Of a stretch of DNA of 36,636 nt, positions 23,771-34,384 are shown one piece after another; within the stretch, counting starts at the first letter, position 1; each line of letters starts with the position of its first letter. Origin of the DNA: Clostridiales bacterium (GTDB lineage Bacteria > Bacillota > Clostridia > Lachnospirales > Lachnospiraceae). The position numbers were made by a program, and so were the translations under genes. The notes beneath the pieces were generated by a model that saw nothing but the letters and a program-made list of their open reading frames with translations, was not told the DNA's origin and did not search any database. The stretch covers positions 1 through 36,636 of the forward strand of contig JAAYPX010000218.1 of assembly GCA_012519565.1 (NCBI GenBank), given 5' to 3'.

Positions 23771-24048
23771 GCTATAACCTCGCTTTATTGTATAAATGCC
23801 GATTCTATGTAGAATCACCTAGTTGCATTATAGTTTATCATAATTTCATGTATTAAAAAAGAAAATTCTTATTAAAAATCTCTAAAAATCTCTAAAAAAT
23901 AAATTGAATCATAAAGGGCATGGTATAAATTTCCGATTTGCATAATGTTATATTGCTTGATATGCTTAACTATTATATAATTATAAAAATATATAATTTA
24001 AAAAGGGTAATAACAGCATGAGCTAAAATATGAAAGGTGATGTTAATT

Positions 24049-24930
24049 TTGAAGAGGGTTCTAAGGTTTATGGCTGGTTTATCACCGGCGCTGGTGGCGA
24101 TAGGTATACAGGCTTTGGTTATGGCTATTATAGTGTTTTCATATACATTTATAGGAGGACTGGTGTTAGGTTATGAATTTGCTTCCATGGGAATAACTGA
24201 TAATGACATTATTTATAAGGAACTGGCCAAAATGACTGAGATTACTCCGGAAACACAATATGTTTTTGCAGTAATAGCTAGTGTAGTCTGCGGAGTGGTA
24301 TTCTTTTTTTGGTATCGCAGGGTTACAAAATATGAAATTAAGATAAGATTAAACTCTGTTTTTAAATTTAAAAAAATTGGTCTATTTATCTCCTTGGGCA
24401 TTGGTTGTCAGTTATTACTTTCGGGTATCATGAATATTATTCAACCATTTTTGGAAGAACTATTTAAGGAATACTCTAGTGTAATGGAAACTTTATTTAG
24501 TGGCAAGCTAGGGCTAGTGATTTTGTATACAGTTATTATAGCACCTATAGTTGAAGAATTAATATTTCGTGGCTTAATGCTTAAGTTGACTCAGCGCTCC
24601 GTTTCTTTTATGGCTGCAAATTTTATGCAGGCTCTTGTCTTTGGTATATACCATGGCAATCTGATACAAGGTACCTATGCCTTTGGCTTGGGTTTTTTAC
24701 TAGGGCTATTAGCAAGGAAATTCAAGAGCATTATAGCACCAATATTATTGCATATAATAGTCAACGGAAGTGCTTTTCTAATAGGATTTTTACCATCTCA
24801 TCAACTGGTCTATTTTGGAATGATTATATTAGGGGGAGTTTCAGTAGTATTTTCATATATTAAACTGATAGCAGAAGCAGAGGATATAGCTGATTACCAT
24901 AGACCTTTGGATAATAATTATTTTTTATAA
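24049..24930 (+). CDS. CPBP family intramembrane metalloprotease (first copy)
   Basis: 293-aa polytopic protein of the CPBP/Abi/Rce1 family. It carries the EExxxR motif (EELIFR, about 169-174), then FGIYHGN and HIIVNGSAF, supplying the conserved Glu, Arg and His residues. About seven membrane segments. Start choice: GTG 24037 and ATG 24040 overlap the AAAGGTG ribosome binding site (24033-24039), while TTG 24049 has 9-nt spacing. The substrate is unknown; family members cleave membrane peptides or process bacteriocins. The upstream 230 bp contain an AAAAATCTCT tandem near 23874-23896. Confidence 0.87.
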   Translation: MKRVLRFMAGLSPALVAIGIQALVMAIIVFSYTFIGGLVLGYEFASMGITDNDIIYKELAKMTEITPETQYVFAVIASVVCGVVFFFWYRRVTKYEIKIRLNSVFKFKKIGLFISLGIGCQLLLSGIMNIIQPFLEELFKEYSSVMETLFSGKLGLVILYTVIIAPIVEELIFRGLMLKLTQRSVSFMAANFMQALVFGIYHGNLIQGTYAFGLGFLLGLLARKFKSIIAPILLHIIVNGSAFLIGFLPSHQLVYFGMIILGGVSVVFSYIKLIAEAEDIADYHRPLDNNYFL

Positions 24931-27039: not shown

Positions 27040-27396
27040 ATGGCAAGAGTTAAAGGCGGATTAAACGCTAGGAGAAAACATAATAAAGTATTAAAGCTAG
27101 CTAAGGGATATAGAGGAGCTAGATCAAAACAATATAGAGTAGCAAAGCAATCTGTTATGAGAGCTTTAGCAACATCTTTCTCAGGTAGAAAAGAGAGAAA
27201 AAGACAATTTAGACAGTTGTGGATTGCTAGAATTAACGCGGCTGCAAGAATCAATGGATTATCATATAGCAAATTTATGCATGGTTTAAAATTAGCCAAT
27301 ATTGATATTAACAGAAAGATGCTTTCTGAGATGGCTATCAATGATGCTGAAGGTTTTGCAGCACTAGTTGAAGTTGCTAAGTCAAAGTTAGCTTAA
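27040..27396 (+). CDS. rplT: 50S ribosomal protein L20
   Basis: 118-aa early-assembly protein of the large subunit and the likely autoregulator of this operon. Basic N-terminal extension ([33 protein letters not shown]), then a globular domain with [31 protein letters not shown] precedes the ATG. 26 bp after rpmI; a large hairpin follows. Confidence 0.97.
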
Positions 27397-27487: not shown

Positions 27488-28183
27488 TTATATTGTTGTT
27501 TCTAAACCTAGGGTTGCATTAACTGGCATTGAGAAACATATTCCTTTACCTGGAGTTGATAATCCAACTTCATGGGTAATAGTTTCCATAATTTTTTGCC
27601 TGTATTCATGGGGAGTTAGGATAAGTACAATGTCTTTTTCTGGCTGTATTGTAATGCCAAGAAACTTAGCAGCTTCCTTAGAACCTAAACCTCTTCCGTG
27701 TATTAAAGTACCACCAGTTGCTCCAGCAGATTTTGCTGCATCCATGACCTGGTCAAAATACCCTGTATTTACAATTGTAATAATTAGATCATAAGCGTTT
27801 TTCTGAACCATAGTTTCCTCCTCCACTACAGATTTCATGTCCTGGTCTGATGATATACATATCTTTGATAAAATATTACTAATACTATTGATGGGTATAG
27901 TAAAGGCTATACCCCTCCCTGGTTTGTTTAAATTCATTTTGTTATTCAATAATTTAAATACATGTTTAGATTTTCTTTCACTTAAAACGCTAAGAATTAT
28001 TGATTTTTTGCTCTCTCCAAATCCCAGAATATCGAAAATTTCAGAAGTAGCTGCCCCTTTACCATGGGTAATTAAACTAACAGGAAGATTGTTATTTTGA
28101 TAAAGATCTATAAATGAGTTGGCAACACTATAATCGGTTATTGATATCATCAATTCAAGTAAAATATCAGTTTTTTGATCCAT
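27488..28183 (-). CDS. Tandem PII-like (GlnB-fold) regulator
   Basis: 231-aa soluble protein made of two PII-like domains in one chain. Domain 1 (about 1-112) has THGKGAATSEIF at about 39-50 and NKPGRGIAFTIP at about 86-97. Domain 2 (about 128-231) has IHGRGLGSKEAAKF at about 161-174 and STPGKGICFSMP at about 209-220. These correspond to the region before the T-loop and the phosphate-binding C-terminal region of PII. The T-loop is short and the usual uridylylated Tyr is not visible, so nucleotide or metabolite sensing would have to work without classic uridylylation. GGAGG precedes the ATG. It lies 33 bp after a DUF1538 membrane protein in the same operon, so it probably gates that transporter. 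Confidence 0.82.
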   Translation of the reverse strand: MDQKTDILLELMISITDYSVANSFIDLYQNNNLPVSLITHGKGAATSEIFDILGFGESKKSIILSVLSERKSKHVFKLLNNKMNLNKPGRGIAFTIPINSISNILSKICISSDQDMKSVVEEETMVQKNAYDLIITIVNTGYFDQVMDAAKSAGATGGTLIHGRGLGSKEAAKFLGITIQPEKDIVLILTPHEYRQKIMETITHEVGLSTPGKGICFSMPVNATLGLETTI

Positions 28184-28216
28184 TAGTCAACCTCCATTCC
28201 TTATTGAAGCTTCCTC

Positions 28217-30019
28217 TCAATTGTTATTATATCTCAATGTATCATCTATATCTATTGGTTTATCAATTTCTAATGTAAGATCTTCGATATTTACATCGGA
28301 TATAACTTTTGTATTGGCAACAGTATCATCCATATGTGGGTCTACATCCATATGGGGGTCAACTTCTAAACTGGCGCCACCTTCCGTATATGAATCAGCT
28401 ACCATATCTACATCTGCTTCAATATCTGTATAGGTTGCTGCATCCATAGTGGTTGAAATATTATTGTCAGCTTCATTAGCTACATCAGCGGTAAGGGTAT
28501 TATCCGCAGCAATAGGCCTATCATATTCGATAATAATATCATCAACCACTGGTTCAACGTTCTCAGAGGCGAGCCGGGCTGATTTTATACGGTAAATAAC
28601 ACCAAAACATAGTATTGTAATTACTGGAGTTAAGGCTATAATAGCTACAATACCGAATGCATCTGTAAATATATTGCCACCAACAGCTTCGCTTGCTCCT
28701 ATTGCTAAGGGCAATAGAAATGTAGCAGCCAAAGGCCCAGAAGCTACAGTGCCAGAGTCAAAAGCGATGGAGGTAAATAGAGGAGGAACAATGAGCGTAA
28801 GTATTAGTGCTATTGTATATCCTGGGATAACTAAATATAGGATAGAAAATTCATATATAACACGGAGCATAGATAAACCTACGGATAGGCCAACACCTAT
28901 GGATAGGCCTATACCCATAGCTTTTGCTGAAATTGCGCCATCTGTTATATCTTCTACTTGATGTTTTAGTACGAACACAGCTGGTTCAGCAGCCACAATA
29001 AAGAATCCTAGTATCAAACCCATCAGAACTAAGAACCATGGGCTGGTATGCTCAACCAATGAGTTTCCTATTAAGTAACCAGTTGGCATGAAACCAACAT
29101 TTACACTGGCTAAAAATAAAACCAAACCAATATATGTATATATAGTTCCTACCAACATTTTTAATAAGGTTTTCTTCTTTAAACGGAGTCTAACAATTTG
29201 GAAAATTATAAATAGCAATATTATTGGAAGTAATGCTATAGCAACTTCCTTTAAATAAGTAGGAAAGCTACTAAAAGTCAAATTAAGCAAATCAGAAAAA
29301 CTATTAATATTAGGTACGGATAAGGCACTGCCACCAGAAGGCTTGTAAAACATTCCTAGTATAAGCACTGCTATAATTGGGCCAATTAAACAGAAAGAAA
29401 TTAGTCCAAAACTATCCTCTTCTGTAGTTTTATCACCACGGACAGAAGCCATACCTAAGCCTAAAGCCATTACAAAAGGAACCATAATAGGGCCAGTAGT
29501 TACACCACCAGATTCATAAGCTATTGATAAGAAATCTGTGCTAGTGAAGAATGATAAAACAAAGATTATCCCATATAAGATGATTAGAATATATGATAAT
29601 CTTATCTGTAATAGTACGCGAAGGAATGAAAGTACTAATGCAATTCCTACACCAACTGCTACAGTTATAATTAATGCCATATCAGGTACACCATTAACTT
29701 GACTGGCAAGTATCTTTAAATCTGGTTCTGCTATAGTTATAAAAATCCCTATAATAAGAGTTATGAATATAATAAATGGGAGATTGCGAGATTTTACTAA
29801 GGAGGAACCAACTTTCTCCCCCATGGGCATCATAGAAGTATCAACACCCAAATTAAAAAATGTAATTCCTAATATAACTAATATTGAACTCAGGATAAAT
29901 AACATTAAAGTGTAGAAAGGCATTGGTGTTACAGTGAAATGTAAAATACCTACTATGATCATAATGGGAACAACGGATAATACAGATTGCGAAAGCTTTT
30001 CTAATAACATTTTCTTCAT
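28217..30019 (-). CDS. DUF1538 membrane protein, internally duplicated, with acidic tail
   Basis: 600-aa polytopic membrane protein with two DUF1538 repeats, about 1-225 and 260-480. Matching motifs are IAEPDLKILASQV (96-108) with AAEPAVFVLKHQV (343-355), and SGGVTTGPIMVPF (170-182) with SGTVASGPLAATF (422-434). From memory, a DUF1538 pair, UmpA/UmpB of Halomonas, was reported to act as a two-component Na+(Li+, K+)/H+ antiporter; here both halves are fused. About 120 acidic, low-complexity residues follow (about 481-600), with two similar motifs, EYDRPIAADNTL (498-509) and EIDKPIDIDDTL (584-595). AGAGGTG precedes the ATG. Followed by a tandem PII-like gene. Confidence 0.85.
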   Translation of the reverse strand: MKKMLLEKLSQSVLSVVPIMIIVGILHFTVTPMPFYTLMLFILSSILVILGITFFNLGVDTSMMPMGEKVGSSLVKSRNLPFIIFITLIIGIFITIAEPDLKILASQVNGVPDMALIITVAVGVGIALVLSFLRVLLQIRLSYILIILYGIIFVLSFFTSTDFLSIAYESGGVTTGPIMVPFVMALGLGMASVRGDKTTEEDSFGLISFCLIGPIIAVLILGMFYKPSGGSALSVPNINSFSDLLNLTFSSFPTYLKEVAIALLPIILLFIIFQIVRLRLKKKTLLKMLVGTIYTYIGLVLFLASVNVGFMPTGYLIGNSLVEHTSPWFLVLMGLILGFFIVAAEPAVFVLKHQVEDITDGAISAKAMGIGLSIGVGLSVGLSMLRVIYEFSILYLVIPGYTIALILTLIVPPLFTSIAFDSGTVASGPLAATFLLPLAIGASEAVGGNIFTDAFGIVAIIALTPVITILCFGVIYRIKSARLASENVEPVVDDIIIEYDRPIAADNTLTADVANEADNNISTTMDAATYTDIEADVDMVADSYTEGGASLEVDPHMDVDPHMDDTVANTKVISDVNIEDLTLEIDKPIDIDDTLRYNNN

Positions 30020-30029
30020 TTCATCACCT

Positions 30030-30119
30030 CTAAGTTATATATTTATAGGTAAAAAAATGACATAATGGGTGTTCTGAAAAATGATCTAACGAGCCTTTAT
30101 ATTGAGAAATAAGAAACAT
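30030..30119 (-). CDS. 29-aa small ORF leading the DUF1538-PII operon
   Basis: ATG at 30117-30119 with a near-perfect ribosome binding site AAGGAGGTG 5 nt upstream. The frame encodes 29 residues (MFLISQYKGSLDHF...) and ends in TAG at 30030-30032, within the ribosome binding site region of the DUF1538 gene, 10 bp before its ATG. The first codon is about 18 nt after the predicted transcription start. The peptide is aromatic-rich and has no clear membrane segment. It may be a leader peptide coupling translation of the transporter, or a small protein in its own right. Confidence 0.55.
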   Translation of the reverse strand: MFLISQYKGSLDHFSEHPLCHFFTYKYIT

Positions 30120-30143
30120 TAGGGCACCTCCTTATTTGTTATA

Positions 30144-30171
30144 ATTATAGCAACAATTTTAAGTATAACAA
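30144..30171 (-). promoter_or_regulatory. Extended -10 promoter of the DUF1538-PII operon
   Basis: Read on the minus strand: TTGTTA (30171-30166), a 16-bp spacer, then TATAAT (30149-30144) preceded by TG one base upstream (TTGCTATAAT). Confidence 0.7.
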
Positions 30172-30463: not shown

Positions 30464-31201
30464 ATGAGCAATAGAATTTCTAATATGTTATGGGGCTTGG
30501 TATTTATTGTACTTGGTATGGCAATAGCTGCTAAGTCCATATGGGATGTTGATATTTTTTTTAAAGGATGGTGGACCTTATTCATTATCGTGCCTAGTTT
30601 TATAGGCATGCTTAAAAGTAGGTTTGGTGTAGGCTCTACTGTAACATTTATTGTAGGTGTATACCTGCTACTGGCATCGCAGCCAGTATTTGGTTTTGGC
30701 GTACGAAAACTATTATTGCCAACCATATTTATTTTTATAGGATTACGAATTATATTTCAGAGCGCTGGATATAAGCGCTATAGATTAGAATATAAAGGTG
30801 AACCAGGACAAAATAATAATGTAGAGGGGGAAGTAATTTACAATCAAGATGTATATAGGGATGATGGAGCGAGAAACGATGGTTTACCTGAATATAACGC
30901 TACTTTTACCAGTAATAGTATAAATATACAAAATAATTTCTATGGAGCAAGTTTGAATTCTGTATTTGGATCTCTTGTTTTAGATTTAAGGAATGCAAGT
31001 ATAAATCATGATGTGGAGATTAATGCTACAGCAATTTTTGCTGGTATTGATATATATATTCCGGAAAATGTAAACATTAAGATAAATAGTGTGCCGATAT
31101 TTGGAGGAGTAAGTAATAAAGTAAACAGGCCTTATAACCATGAGCTACCTACAATTTATTTGAGCTCCACATGCATGTTTGGAGGGATTGATATTAAATG
31201 A
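30464..31201 (+). CDS. LiaF-like membrane protein
   Basis: 245-aa protein with about four N-terminal hydrophobic segments (NMLWGLVFIVLGMAIAAKSIW; WWTLFIIVPSFIGML; VTFIVGVYLLLAS; LLLPTIFIFIGLRII). A short linker and a beta-rich C-terminal domain follow (about 155-245: SLNSVFGSLVLDLRNASI, AIFAGIDIYIPENVNIKI, VPIFGGVSNKV, CMFGGIDIK). That pattern matches the LiaF C-terminal domain of cell-envelope stress systems. No histidine kinase or response regulator is adjacent, so the usual LiaRS partners are missing here. The stop overlaps the next start by 4 bp (ATGA), so the two genes are translationally coupled. Confidence 0.85.
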   Translation: MSNRISNMLWGLVFIVLGMAIAAKSIWDVDIFFKGWWTLFIIVPSFIGMLKSRFGVGSTVTFIVGVYLLLASQPVFGFGVRKLLLPTIFIFIGLRIIFQSAGYKRYRLEYKGEPGQNNNVEGEVIYNQDVYRDDGARNDGLPEYNATFTSNSINIQNNFYGASLNSVFGSLVLDLRNASINHDVEINATAIFAGIDIYIPENVNIKINSVPIFGGVSNKVNRPYNHELPTIYLSSTCMFGGIDIK

Positions 31202-32061
31202 ACAGCTTTCAGAAGGTAATTAAGTATATAGCAATGGGATTTGCTGTTTTATTGACTGTGGGAATTGTCTCAGCAATTGTTAATACAGCTATATTTGCAT
31301 CTAACATAATAAGTGGTAATATATTCAATTATAATAAAGAGGAAGGATATATGAATTTTTCAGAAAATTTTACGGATGTTACCAATCTAGATATTAATAT
31401 TGATGCTGGTGTACTAATTATTAAAGAAGGAACAACTTTTGTAGTGGAAGGCATGAATGTAAGTGATGATTTTTCTGCTACAGTAGGCAGAGATGGGACC
31501 TTGAAAATTAAAGAAAGTAAAGCTAGAAAGGTTTTAAACAATATATTTAACTGGGCTACTTGGTCTAATAATAATAGCAAAACTAGAGTTATAATATATT
31601 TGCCTAAGGATTTTGTAGCAGAAAGTGTAAGAATTGAATCAGGTGCATGTAATATTGATATTGAAGCATTAGATACGGATAAATTGATTATTGATGCAGG
31701 AGCTGGTAATATAAAGGGAAGTCAGATGAAGATAGATAAACTAGATTTGGATGGTGGAGTTGGAAATATTATATTTTCTAATGTTATATTTCAAGATATA
31801 GATATTGACTGTGGTGGAGGTAATCTTGAAATAGATGGTGAATTATATGGTAATAATCAGATAGATTGTGGACTTGGTAATGTCACCCTGCTAATCAATG
31901 GGAATATGGATGAATATGATTTAAGAATAGATGCTGGTATAGGTGATGTTCGCTTAAATGGTGATAAAGTTAATAATTATAATAATAGAGGAAAACATGC
32001 AAGACATAAACTAGATATTGATGGTGGAATTGGTAATATAGCCCTTAAATTTTTGAATTAA
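31198..32061 (+). CDS. DUF4097-family beta-strand repeat protein
   Basis: 287-aa protein with an N-terminal membrane anchor (about 8-35). A repeat domain of about eight units follows, such as IIDAGAGNIKGS, LDLDGGVGNIIFS, DIDCGGGNLEIDG, RIDAGIGDVRLNG and LDIDGGIGNIAL, spaced roughly 20 residues. This fits the DUF4097 putative adhesin or beta-helix fold on the outside of the membrane. It is coupled to the LiaF-like gene by an ATGA overlap. A terminator follows. Function unknown; an envelope-stress sensor or modulator is plausible. Confidence 0.85.
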   Translation: MNSFQKVIKYIAMGFAVLLTVGIVSAIVNTAIFASNIISGNIFNYNKEEGYMNFSENFTDVTNLDINIDAGVLIIKEGTTFVVEGMNVSDDFSATVGRDGTLKIKESKARKVLNNIFNWATWSNNNSKTRVIIYLPKDFVAESVRIESGACNIDIEALDTDKLIIDAGAGNIKGSQMKIDKLDLDGGVGNIIFSNVIFQDIDIDCGGGNLEIDGELYGNNQIDCGLGNVTLLINGNMDEYDLRIDAGIGDVRLNGDKVNNYNNRGKHARHKLDIDGGIGNIALKFLN

Positions 32062-33475: not shown

Positions 33476-34384
33476 ATGGAAGAAGATTACAATATTGGTA
33501 AACGAGTAAATAGAATTGGCTTTTCTCTGCTTGCCATGGTTTTAGCAATTTTTATATCACAAGTGCTTATTGATTTTCTTGTAAAAATGATTGCTCCTGA
33601 TCTTAAGGCTACTGACTGGTATATTTGGGCGGTGACAGCTATTACCATGGTTGGTATTGGGTTACCAGTTATATATAGTATTGGCCGGAGTATACCCTCC
33701 TATAATCAAGGTGAAGTTAAAAAATTAAAACTTAGTGAATTTGGAATGATATTTATTATAAGTGCAGCCCTGATGTATGTATCAAATTATGTAGGTGTCT
33801 TTATCAATTTACTTATTTCAATGTTAATTGGGCGGCCCTTAATAACTTCCTTCCAAGATATTATTTTAAATAGTAATATGCTTTTTACCTTTTTATATGG
33901 ATGTATAGTAGCCTCGATTGTGGAAGAGCTTATATTTAGAAAGCTTCTTCTTAGTAAGCTCCGTTACTATGGAGATTTACCTGCAATCTTGTATACTGGT
34001 ATAGCCTTTGGATTAATACATATGAATCTTTCTCAGTTTTTCTATGCAACAACCTTGGGTATAGTCTTTGCCTACGTGACAATTAGGACTAATACAATAA
34101 AATACTCCATAATATTGCATATGATGATTAATTTTATTGGAGGGGTTATAGCCCCTTTGGTACTTAAAAGCCAGAACCTAGGAGTTATAATGTTAATAGG
34201 CATATGGGTTATCACTGCTATAACATTAGGGATAGTTCTTCTTATATTAAATTTTAAAAAGATAAAACTAGTTAAACCGCCAATGGCAATACAGAGAAAA
34301 TCGGTTTTCCTGTTTAATATAGGAACAGTTTTATTTATAGGGTTTTGTATGGTAAATATGGCATTATCAATACTTAATAGCTAG
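33476..34384 (+). CDS. CPBP family intramembrane metalloprotease (second copy)
   Basis: 302-aa polytopic protein with EELIFR at 150-155, FGLIHMN and ILHMMINFIGG, the conserved Glu, Arg and His set of the CPBP family. About eight membrane segments. It follows the carboxypeptidase by 29 bp with AAGGGGG upstream and precedes a CDF transporter. It is distinct in sequence from the copy at 24049. The substrate is unknown. Confidence 0.88.
   Translation: MEEDYNIGKRVNRIGFSLLAMVLAIFISQVLIDFLVKMIAPDLKATDWYIWAVTAITMVGIGLPVIYSIGRSIPSYNQGEVKKLKLSEFGMIFIISAALMYVSNYVGVFINLLISMLIGRPLITSFQDIILNSNMLFTFLYGCIVASIVEELIFRKLLLSKLRYYGDLPAILYTGIAFGLIHMNLSQFFYATTLGIVFAYVTIRTNTIKYSIILHMMINFIGGVIAPLVLKSQNLGVIMLIGIWVITAITLGIVLLILNFKKIKLVKPPMAIQRKSVFLFNIGTVLFIGFCMVNMALSILNS

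Follow-up and report, generated by a model that had tools for sequence, protein, structure and literature searches.

How the activity of bacterial Na+,K+/H+ antiporters is controlled from the cytoplasm is, to our knowledge, a largely open question. The control of other transporters by proteins of the PII superfamily is already known: GlnK acts as a plug of AmtB, and SbtB with bound AMP locks SbtA (PMC10710835). According to the same source, the use of PII appears restricted to transporters able to work as trimers, and two ABC transporters are listed too. A PII subgroup that sits beside a metal/proton antiporter is also known: a PII-NG protein is the product of the gene that opens the czcABC operon of Geobacter (PMC7726332), and PII-NG genes are said to lie, for the most part, in clusters with those of CzcABC proton/cation antiporters (PMC7726332, which cites Sant'Anna et al. 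2009). Among membrane proteins of the DUF1538 family, UmpA and UmpB of Halomonas zhaodongensis together restore salt and lithium tolerance to Escherichia coli KNabc, and UmpAB is reported to be a Na+(Li+,K+)/H+ antiporter, a heterodimer for which both subunits are required (PMC5484666). In this work we analysed a locus where a DUF1538 protein and a PII-like protein are encoded side by side, in a stretch of 36,636 nt from a Clostridiales bacterium (Lachnospiraceae; assembly GCA_012519565.1, contig JAAYPX010000218.1), called here the window; coordinates are window positions unless another locus is named. What is new compared with the known systems is that a family of monovalent-cation antiporters is the near-obligate partner of a PII-type protein, and that the sensor is found in tandem form.

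The two genes lie on the minus strand, the DUF1538 gene (28217-30019) being followed after 33 bp by the PII-like gene (27488-28183). The first product is a fused, UmpA-UmpB-like membrane protein of 600 aa, which belongs to the DUF1538 family, as it matches PF07556 in two stretches with 429.4 bits against a cut-off of 22.6. Its half 1, in the UmpA position, is encoded by 29348-29965 and its half 2, in the UmpB position, by 28595-29224; they are followed by an acidic C-terminal tail (28220-28582), predicted to be cytoplasmic, that carries a short DDIIIEYD-like motif. The second product is a tandem PII-like protein of 231 aa. Its C domain (27500-27796, residues ~130-228) is the one stretch that matches PF00543 (PII) above the cut-off (residues 133-224, 36.8 versus 25 bits). 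The N domain (27848-28156, residues ~10-112), a more divergent copy, had no PF00543 match in the Pfam scan; in an alignment of 28 tandem PII-like sequences, the window protein and 27 relatives (alignment A1), it falls in register with the N domain of the others, and profiles made from A1 detect two domains in the tandem relatives. Each domain has a short T-loop, at 28004-28063 (residues ~41-60) in the N domain and at 27632-27697 (residues ~163-184) in the C domain. The operon of a fused DUF1538 pair and a fused PII-like pair described in the initial annotation of this DNA, which a model had made from the sequence, is thereby confirmed, and its mention of a DUF1538 pair reported as a cation/proton antiporter agrees with the report on UmpAB, a member of the same family (PMC5484666). 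By analogy with UmpAB, we favour on balance a reading in which the two genes would make one membrane machine, composed of an antiparallel DUF1538 cation/proton antiporter and its own PII-like gating subunit, with the sensor as the probable on/off switch of the exchanger.

The pairing of DUF1538 with PII is near-obligate and far from chance. In a survey of 398 genomes from the phylum of the host, the family search found DUF1538 in 139. Our sample of 126 DUF1538 loci, not thinned for relatedness, is composed of 33 loci from a scan of genome contigs and of 93 loci taken as one stretch per genome, from 93 of the 139 DUF1538 genomes among the matches listed. In 122 of the 126 loci (32/33 and 90/93), the DUF1538 gene is immediately followed on its strand by a PII-like gene; measured to the furthest upstream start, the gap has a median of -9.5 nt and never exceeds 138 nt. 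Three of the four remaining loci (L037, L047 and L120) stop at a contig end, and L093 is the sole true miss. As a control for synteny, flanking open frames of at least 100 aa at 93 loci were grouped into families (blastp E 1e-8, single linkage), and the most frequent other family was present in 11 of the 93 loci, none being higher. At the level of genomes, a profile of the DUF1538-linked PII built from the fetched loci (A3, E <=1e-8) matches 142 of the 398: 137 genomes have both partners, two have only DUF1538, five have only PII and 254 have neither. The A3-type PII is thus present in 137/139 genomes with DUF1538 versus 5/259 genomes without it. The two DUF1538-only genomes are G304, where the gene lies at a contig end (L047), and G056, where it is broken, with six stop codons in the match; this decayed gene is at 3576-4182 of L142, and the PII profile has no match in G056. 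The PII-only genomes owe their match to a PII linked to a CPA2-type antiporter (G001, G205, G222 and G049, the last of which additionally carries a PII fragment, L137) or to a CitMHS-type transporter (G367). The pairing is also found on plasmids, where PII adjoins DUF1538 in 9/9 records with DUF1538 (seven by annotation, two unannotated by tblastn position). Three of the nine plasmids are alphaproteobacterial (Methylocystis twice, Chelativorans) and have the order DUF1538, DUF1538, single PII, the first DUF1538 gene of the Chelativorans plasmid being annotated at just 273 nt. The possibility, raised in the initial annotation, that the pairing is peculiar to this strain is ruled out by these loci, genomes and plasmids. 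No open frame holding both DUF1538 and PII was present across the 126 loci, and our searches of the open-licence literature found no paper on DUF1538 with PII.

From its sequence, the DUF1538-linked sensor is a member of the PII superfamily and not a classical nitrogen PII. In classical PII proteins, the GDGK/R motif of the B-loop and the arginines of the C-loop RIRTG hold the ATP phosphates. Three solved PII chains aligned to the family profile show GDGK or GDGR, whereas the motif G[DEN]G[KR] was found in the last 45 residues of 0/226 PII domain hits, and the RIRTG arginines in 0/226 as well. A response to ATP/ADP through the classical PII site, as first supposed, finds no support, given this loss of the canonical B-loop motif. 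Compared with the solved PII chain 1ufl, the family profile has a T-loop region reduced by about four residues, and neither T-loop of the window protein contains a Tyr. These two features had been noticed in the initial annotation, but the conclusion drawn from them, that control is by ligand only, is weak: 17 of the 28 A1 sequences have a Tyr at residue 174, in the C-domain T-loop, so its absence is not a family trait. In the same loop E170, K173, E182, K183 and D184 are identical in 28/28 sequences, as is K60 in the T-loop of the N domain; overall, the mean pairwise identity of the 28 sequences is 0.706 for the C domain versus 0.485 for the N domain. Among single-domain PII relatives, 24/27 match PF00543 at E <=0.01, and the solved relatives of the sensor are PII chains only, at E 5e-7 or weaker. 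None of the hallmarks of classical GlnB/GlnK that were examined (B-loop, C-loop, long uridylylated T-loop together with GlnD) was found for the window protein. The host draft genome (2.77 Mb, 90% complete) gave no match for GlnD or AmtB, and its three PF00543 hits at E <=10 include no classical GlnB/GlnK. The third of these hits (L005) resembles a c-di-AMP receptor, presumably DarA/PstA.

Hydropathy gives seven helices per DUF1538 domain, the number of helices predicted for UmpA in the published work (PMC5484666). The window protein is like UmpAB in having two DUF1538 domains, and unlike it in that UmpAB is made of two separate proteins; moreover, in the available text of the UmpAB paper PII is nowhere mentioned, and among the four open reading frames on the 4.2-kb fragment that was cloned there is none described as PII (PMC5484666). 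In the fused proteins, lysine and arginine residues of the loops are in excess on the N-terminus side of half 1 in 66/66 cases (mean 7.7 versus 1.4) and on the opposite side of half 2, again in 66/66 cases (2.2 versus 11.4). Split UmpA proteins have the same bias as half 1 in 38/43 cases (two reversed, three ties), and the bias of split UmpB is reversed in 43/43. This opposite positive-inside bias is that of an inverted repeat and argues that the two halves are antiparallel; on the basis of the fused relatives, half 1 of the window protein is predicted to have its N-terminus inside and half 2 to be inverted with respect to half 1. Loops 2-3 and 6-7 of half 1 and loops 1-2, 3-4 and 5-6 of half 2 are accordingly predicted to be cytoplasmic. 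Six lone DUF1538 proteins show a slight bias (6/5, 5/4, 3/4, 7/5, 2/6 and 2/6), and lone proteins score similarly against both halves; three lone-DUF1538 genomes (G209, G345 and G366) have a single DUF1538 match each in the family search. The series described in DUF606 and related families comprises lone proteins with a charge bias near zero, pairs of opposite orientation and fusions (PMC3962082). DUF1538 is like the DUF606/small multidrug resistance series in that a lone dual-topology form, an antiparallel pair and a fused pair exist in one family (PMC3962082), and differs from it by its seven helices per unit and by its soluble partner, for which single, paired and fused forms exist as well. 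Residues E98, E345 and D421 are identical in 25/25 DUF1538 proteins, all of which have E or D at residue 169; these conserved acidic residues would, as expected, fit cation and proton binding. A published model of the pH at which bacteria grow also has DUF1538 among its 20 Pfam families of greatest weight (PMC13255231). No relative of DUF1538 was found among solved structures. The motif of the acidic tail is present in the clade of the window protein and absent from many other PII-paired members, and we rejected it as a general docking site for PII for this reason; a docking role of the tail itself is only a guess.

Both partners exist in single, paired and fused forms. In a census of 131 clusters, one DUF1538 accompanies one PII in six; two separate DUF1538 accompany one PII in 20, two PII genes in nine and a tandem PII in 17; and a fused DUF1538 accompanies two PII genes in four and a tandem PII in 67, the remaining eight clusters being truncated, odd or without PII. 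A single PII is thus found in 20/46 split versus 0/71 fused DUF1538 clusters. State changes were counted on a tree built quickly from 109 DUF1538 proteins, where the DUF1538 fusion is one change, with a support of 100 in the Shimodaira-Hasegawa-like approximate likelihood ratio test (SH-aLRT), while the tandem state of PII requires 12 changes and the one-or-two PII state five. The PII domains have therefore been repeatedly joined or split, which suggests that two PII domains act in one particle. Since DUF1538 was fused in a single event, the association of this fusion with two PII domains counts only once and no probability can be assigned to it, and a repeated co-evolution of both fusions was dropped as a statistical claim. 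Adjacent PII paralogues are also known in NifI1/NifI2, the target of which is nitrogenase: the two-gene form of the DUF1538-linked PII is like them in its side-by-side paralogues, and unlike them as their target is no transporter.

In the mechanism that we infer, the window antiporter would exchange a monovalent cation for a proton, as UmpAB does, and the PII-like protein would bind it directly, docking on its cytoplasmic face. The binding or loss of a small ligand between the PII domains would reposition the short T-loop, which could then either lock or release the transporter, so that Na+/K+/pH exchange would be coupled to a cytoplasmic signal. Such a unit would be like SbtA-SbtB and AmtB-GlnK in that a PII-type protein acts directly on a secondary transporter; it would differ from them in that SbtA and AmtB are trimeric, whereas DUF1538 is an antiparallel two-domain transporter and its PII is often tandem and devoid of the canonical B-loop. 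PII-NG is like the DUF1538-linked PII in being a PII subgroup beside a proton-driven cation antiporter, with no nitrogen role proposed. It differs by its target, a heavy-metal exporter (CzcABC is a resistance-nodulation-division type exporter), by its description as a proteobacterial clade and by the metal sensing proposed for it.

Several observations weigh against a gated antiporter. A vector with umpA and umpB alone gives active UmpAB in E. coli (PMC5484666), so a dedicated PII is unnecessary for basal transport. The window protein scores below the equivalog cut-offs of NCBIfam, with 178.7 bits for UmpA (NF041627, cut-off 490) and 120.5 bits for UmpB (NF041628, cut-off 500). In G218, the genome of L093, the DUF1538 gene and a tandem PII gene (L132) are on separate contigs and are not adjacent. 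Finally, a restriction of PII to trimer-capable transporters (PMC10710835) is at odds with the UmpAB heterodimer.

Part of the evidence could also be read otherwise. If the PII-like protein were a constitutive structural or assembly subunit, needed for the stability, orientation or pairing of the antiparallel halves and devoid of any ligand switch, one could understand why the pairing is near-obligate, why the canonical ligand residues are lost, why the N domain is less conserved and why the number of PII domains follows the state of the transporter (single PII with 20/46 split and 0/71 fused DUF1538). However, this last point amounts to one observation, the five C-domain T-loop residues identical in 28/28 sequences are as expected for sensing or docking, and no PII had to be cloned along with UmpAB for its activity in E. 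coli (PMC5484666), so we consider a purely structural role unlikely. We give still less credit to the idea that DUF1538 carries here a solute other than Na+/K+, organic or nitrogenous, with PII reporting the carbon/nitrogen state. UmpAB is the sole assayed DUF1538 pair that we found in the literature, the window protein is under the UmpA/UmpB cut-offs, and PII proteins classically serve nitrogen uptake (PMC10710835); against this stand the host draft, with neither a GlnD or AmtB match nor a classical GlnB/GlnK, the presence of related PII-like genes beside CPA2 antiporters, and the rank of DUF1538 among pH-linked families (PMC13255231). Lastly, the two genes might share only their expression or an old synteny, with no functional link. 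Although all the evidence is genomic, and comes from genomes nearly all of one phylum and loci not thinned for relatedness, this seems very improbable to us: the flanking genes turn over (the largest family is in 11/93 loci) while PII stays, the pair is present on plasmids of another phylum, and in the genome where the DUF1538 gene is broken the PII profile finds no match.

Several families of proton-coupled cation transporters that are unrelated to one another have PII-like proteins encoded beside them. The second PF00543 hit of the host (L144, 2577-4186, G000:C53) is a 142-aa PII-like gene directly ahead of a CPA2-type cation/proton antiporter. It led to a second PII-like subfamily, the profile of which (A5, made from five sequences) matches 83/398 genomes at E <=1e-8; eight of the nine weakest A5 rows (E >1e-11) coincide with A3-type places. 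At the best 30 A5 loci, a CPA2-type antiporter lies on the same strand within 182 nt in 30/30 (27 downstream, three upstream), five of these loci coming from genomes that supplied A5; the CPA2 neighbours were found by phmmer with the neighbours in L138 and L144, for both of which PF00999 is shown. CPA2 antiporters are dimers and UmpAB is reported as a heterodimer, so the geometry of docking must differ from that on the trimeric PII targets. In addition, an A3-type PII is directly ahead of a CitMHS/ArsB-like transporter of 442-445 aa in 3/3 genomes (L133, 3658-5589, and L135, 1831-3705, by Pfam; L134, 3494-5355, by eye). The L133 and L135 transporters also score against the MamN model, below the cut-off. 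In L136 (420-3547, G102) a single DUF1538-type PII follows an 837-aa protein with a match to PNTB, the beta subunit of proton-translocating transhydrogenase. We tentatively propose, with less confidence than for the DUF1538 unit, that PII-like proteins with a short T-loop and no canonical ATP loop might form a class of gating subunits that serve proton-coupled cation transporters in general, across unrelated families (DUF1538/UmpAB, CPA2, CitMHS/ArsB-like and PII-NG/CzcABC). Through them, ion and pH homeostasis would respond to a cytoplasmic signal, and they would act on antiparallel or dimeric transporters, not on trimers alone; in DUF1538, the sensor would have been duplicated and fused as the transporter was.

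If DUF1538 antiporters are indeed gated by their PII-like partner, those of about one third of the sampled genomes of the phylum (139/398) would gain a dedicated cytoplasmic sensor, and direct PII control would extend from nitrogen and bicarbonate uptake to ion and pH homeostasis. This would contradict the restriction of PII use to trimer-capable transporters (PMC10710835), and genes annotated as 'P-II family nitrogen regulator' beside DUF1538 would gain a testable non-nitrogen role.

As for its surroundings, the pair is transcribed in the direction of a plus-strand gene at 27040-27396, rplT-like by eye. Behind it, at 30464-32061 (plus strand), LiaF-like and LiaG/DUF4097-like genes, the LiaF-like one at 30464, are divergent from the DUF1538 gene. 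A 29-aa open reading frame (30030-30119, minus strand) with a strong ribosome site ends 10 nt ahead of the DUF1538 start; it was set aside, as no similar frame was found in 23 relatives, four of which have other small frames. Riboswitch control of the pair was considered and rejected: the window has no Rfam match, and a scan of 11 relatives found one c-di-AMP aptamer and otherwise only T-box leaders elsewhere. The aptamer, in L028 (12173-12303, plus strand), is separated by about 3.8 kb from the DUF1538-PII pair that lies upstream of it. In G218, the tandem PII of L132 adjoins a gene that is endonuclease III-like by eye, and is divergent from a 455-aa frame without Pfam match. The window also contains genes for CPBP-like membrane proteins, at 24037-24930 (plus strand), which matches Rce1-like, and at 33476-34384 (plus strand), alike by eye only.

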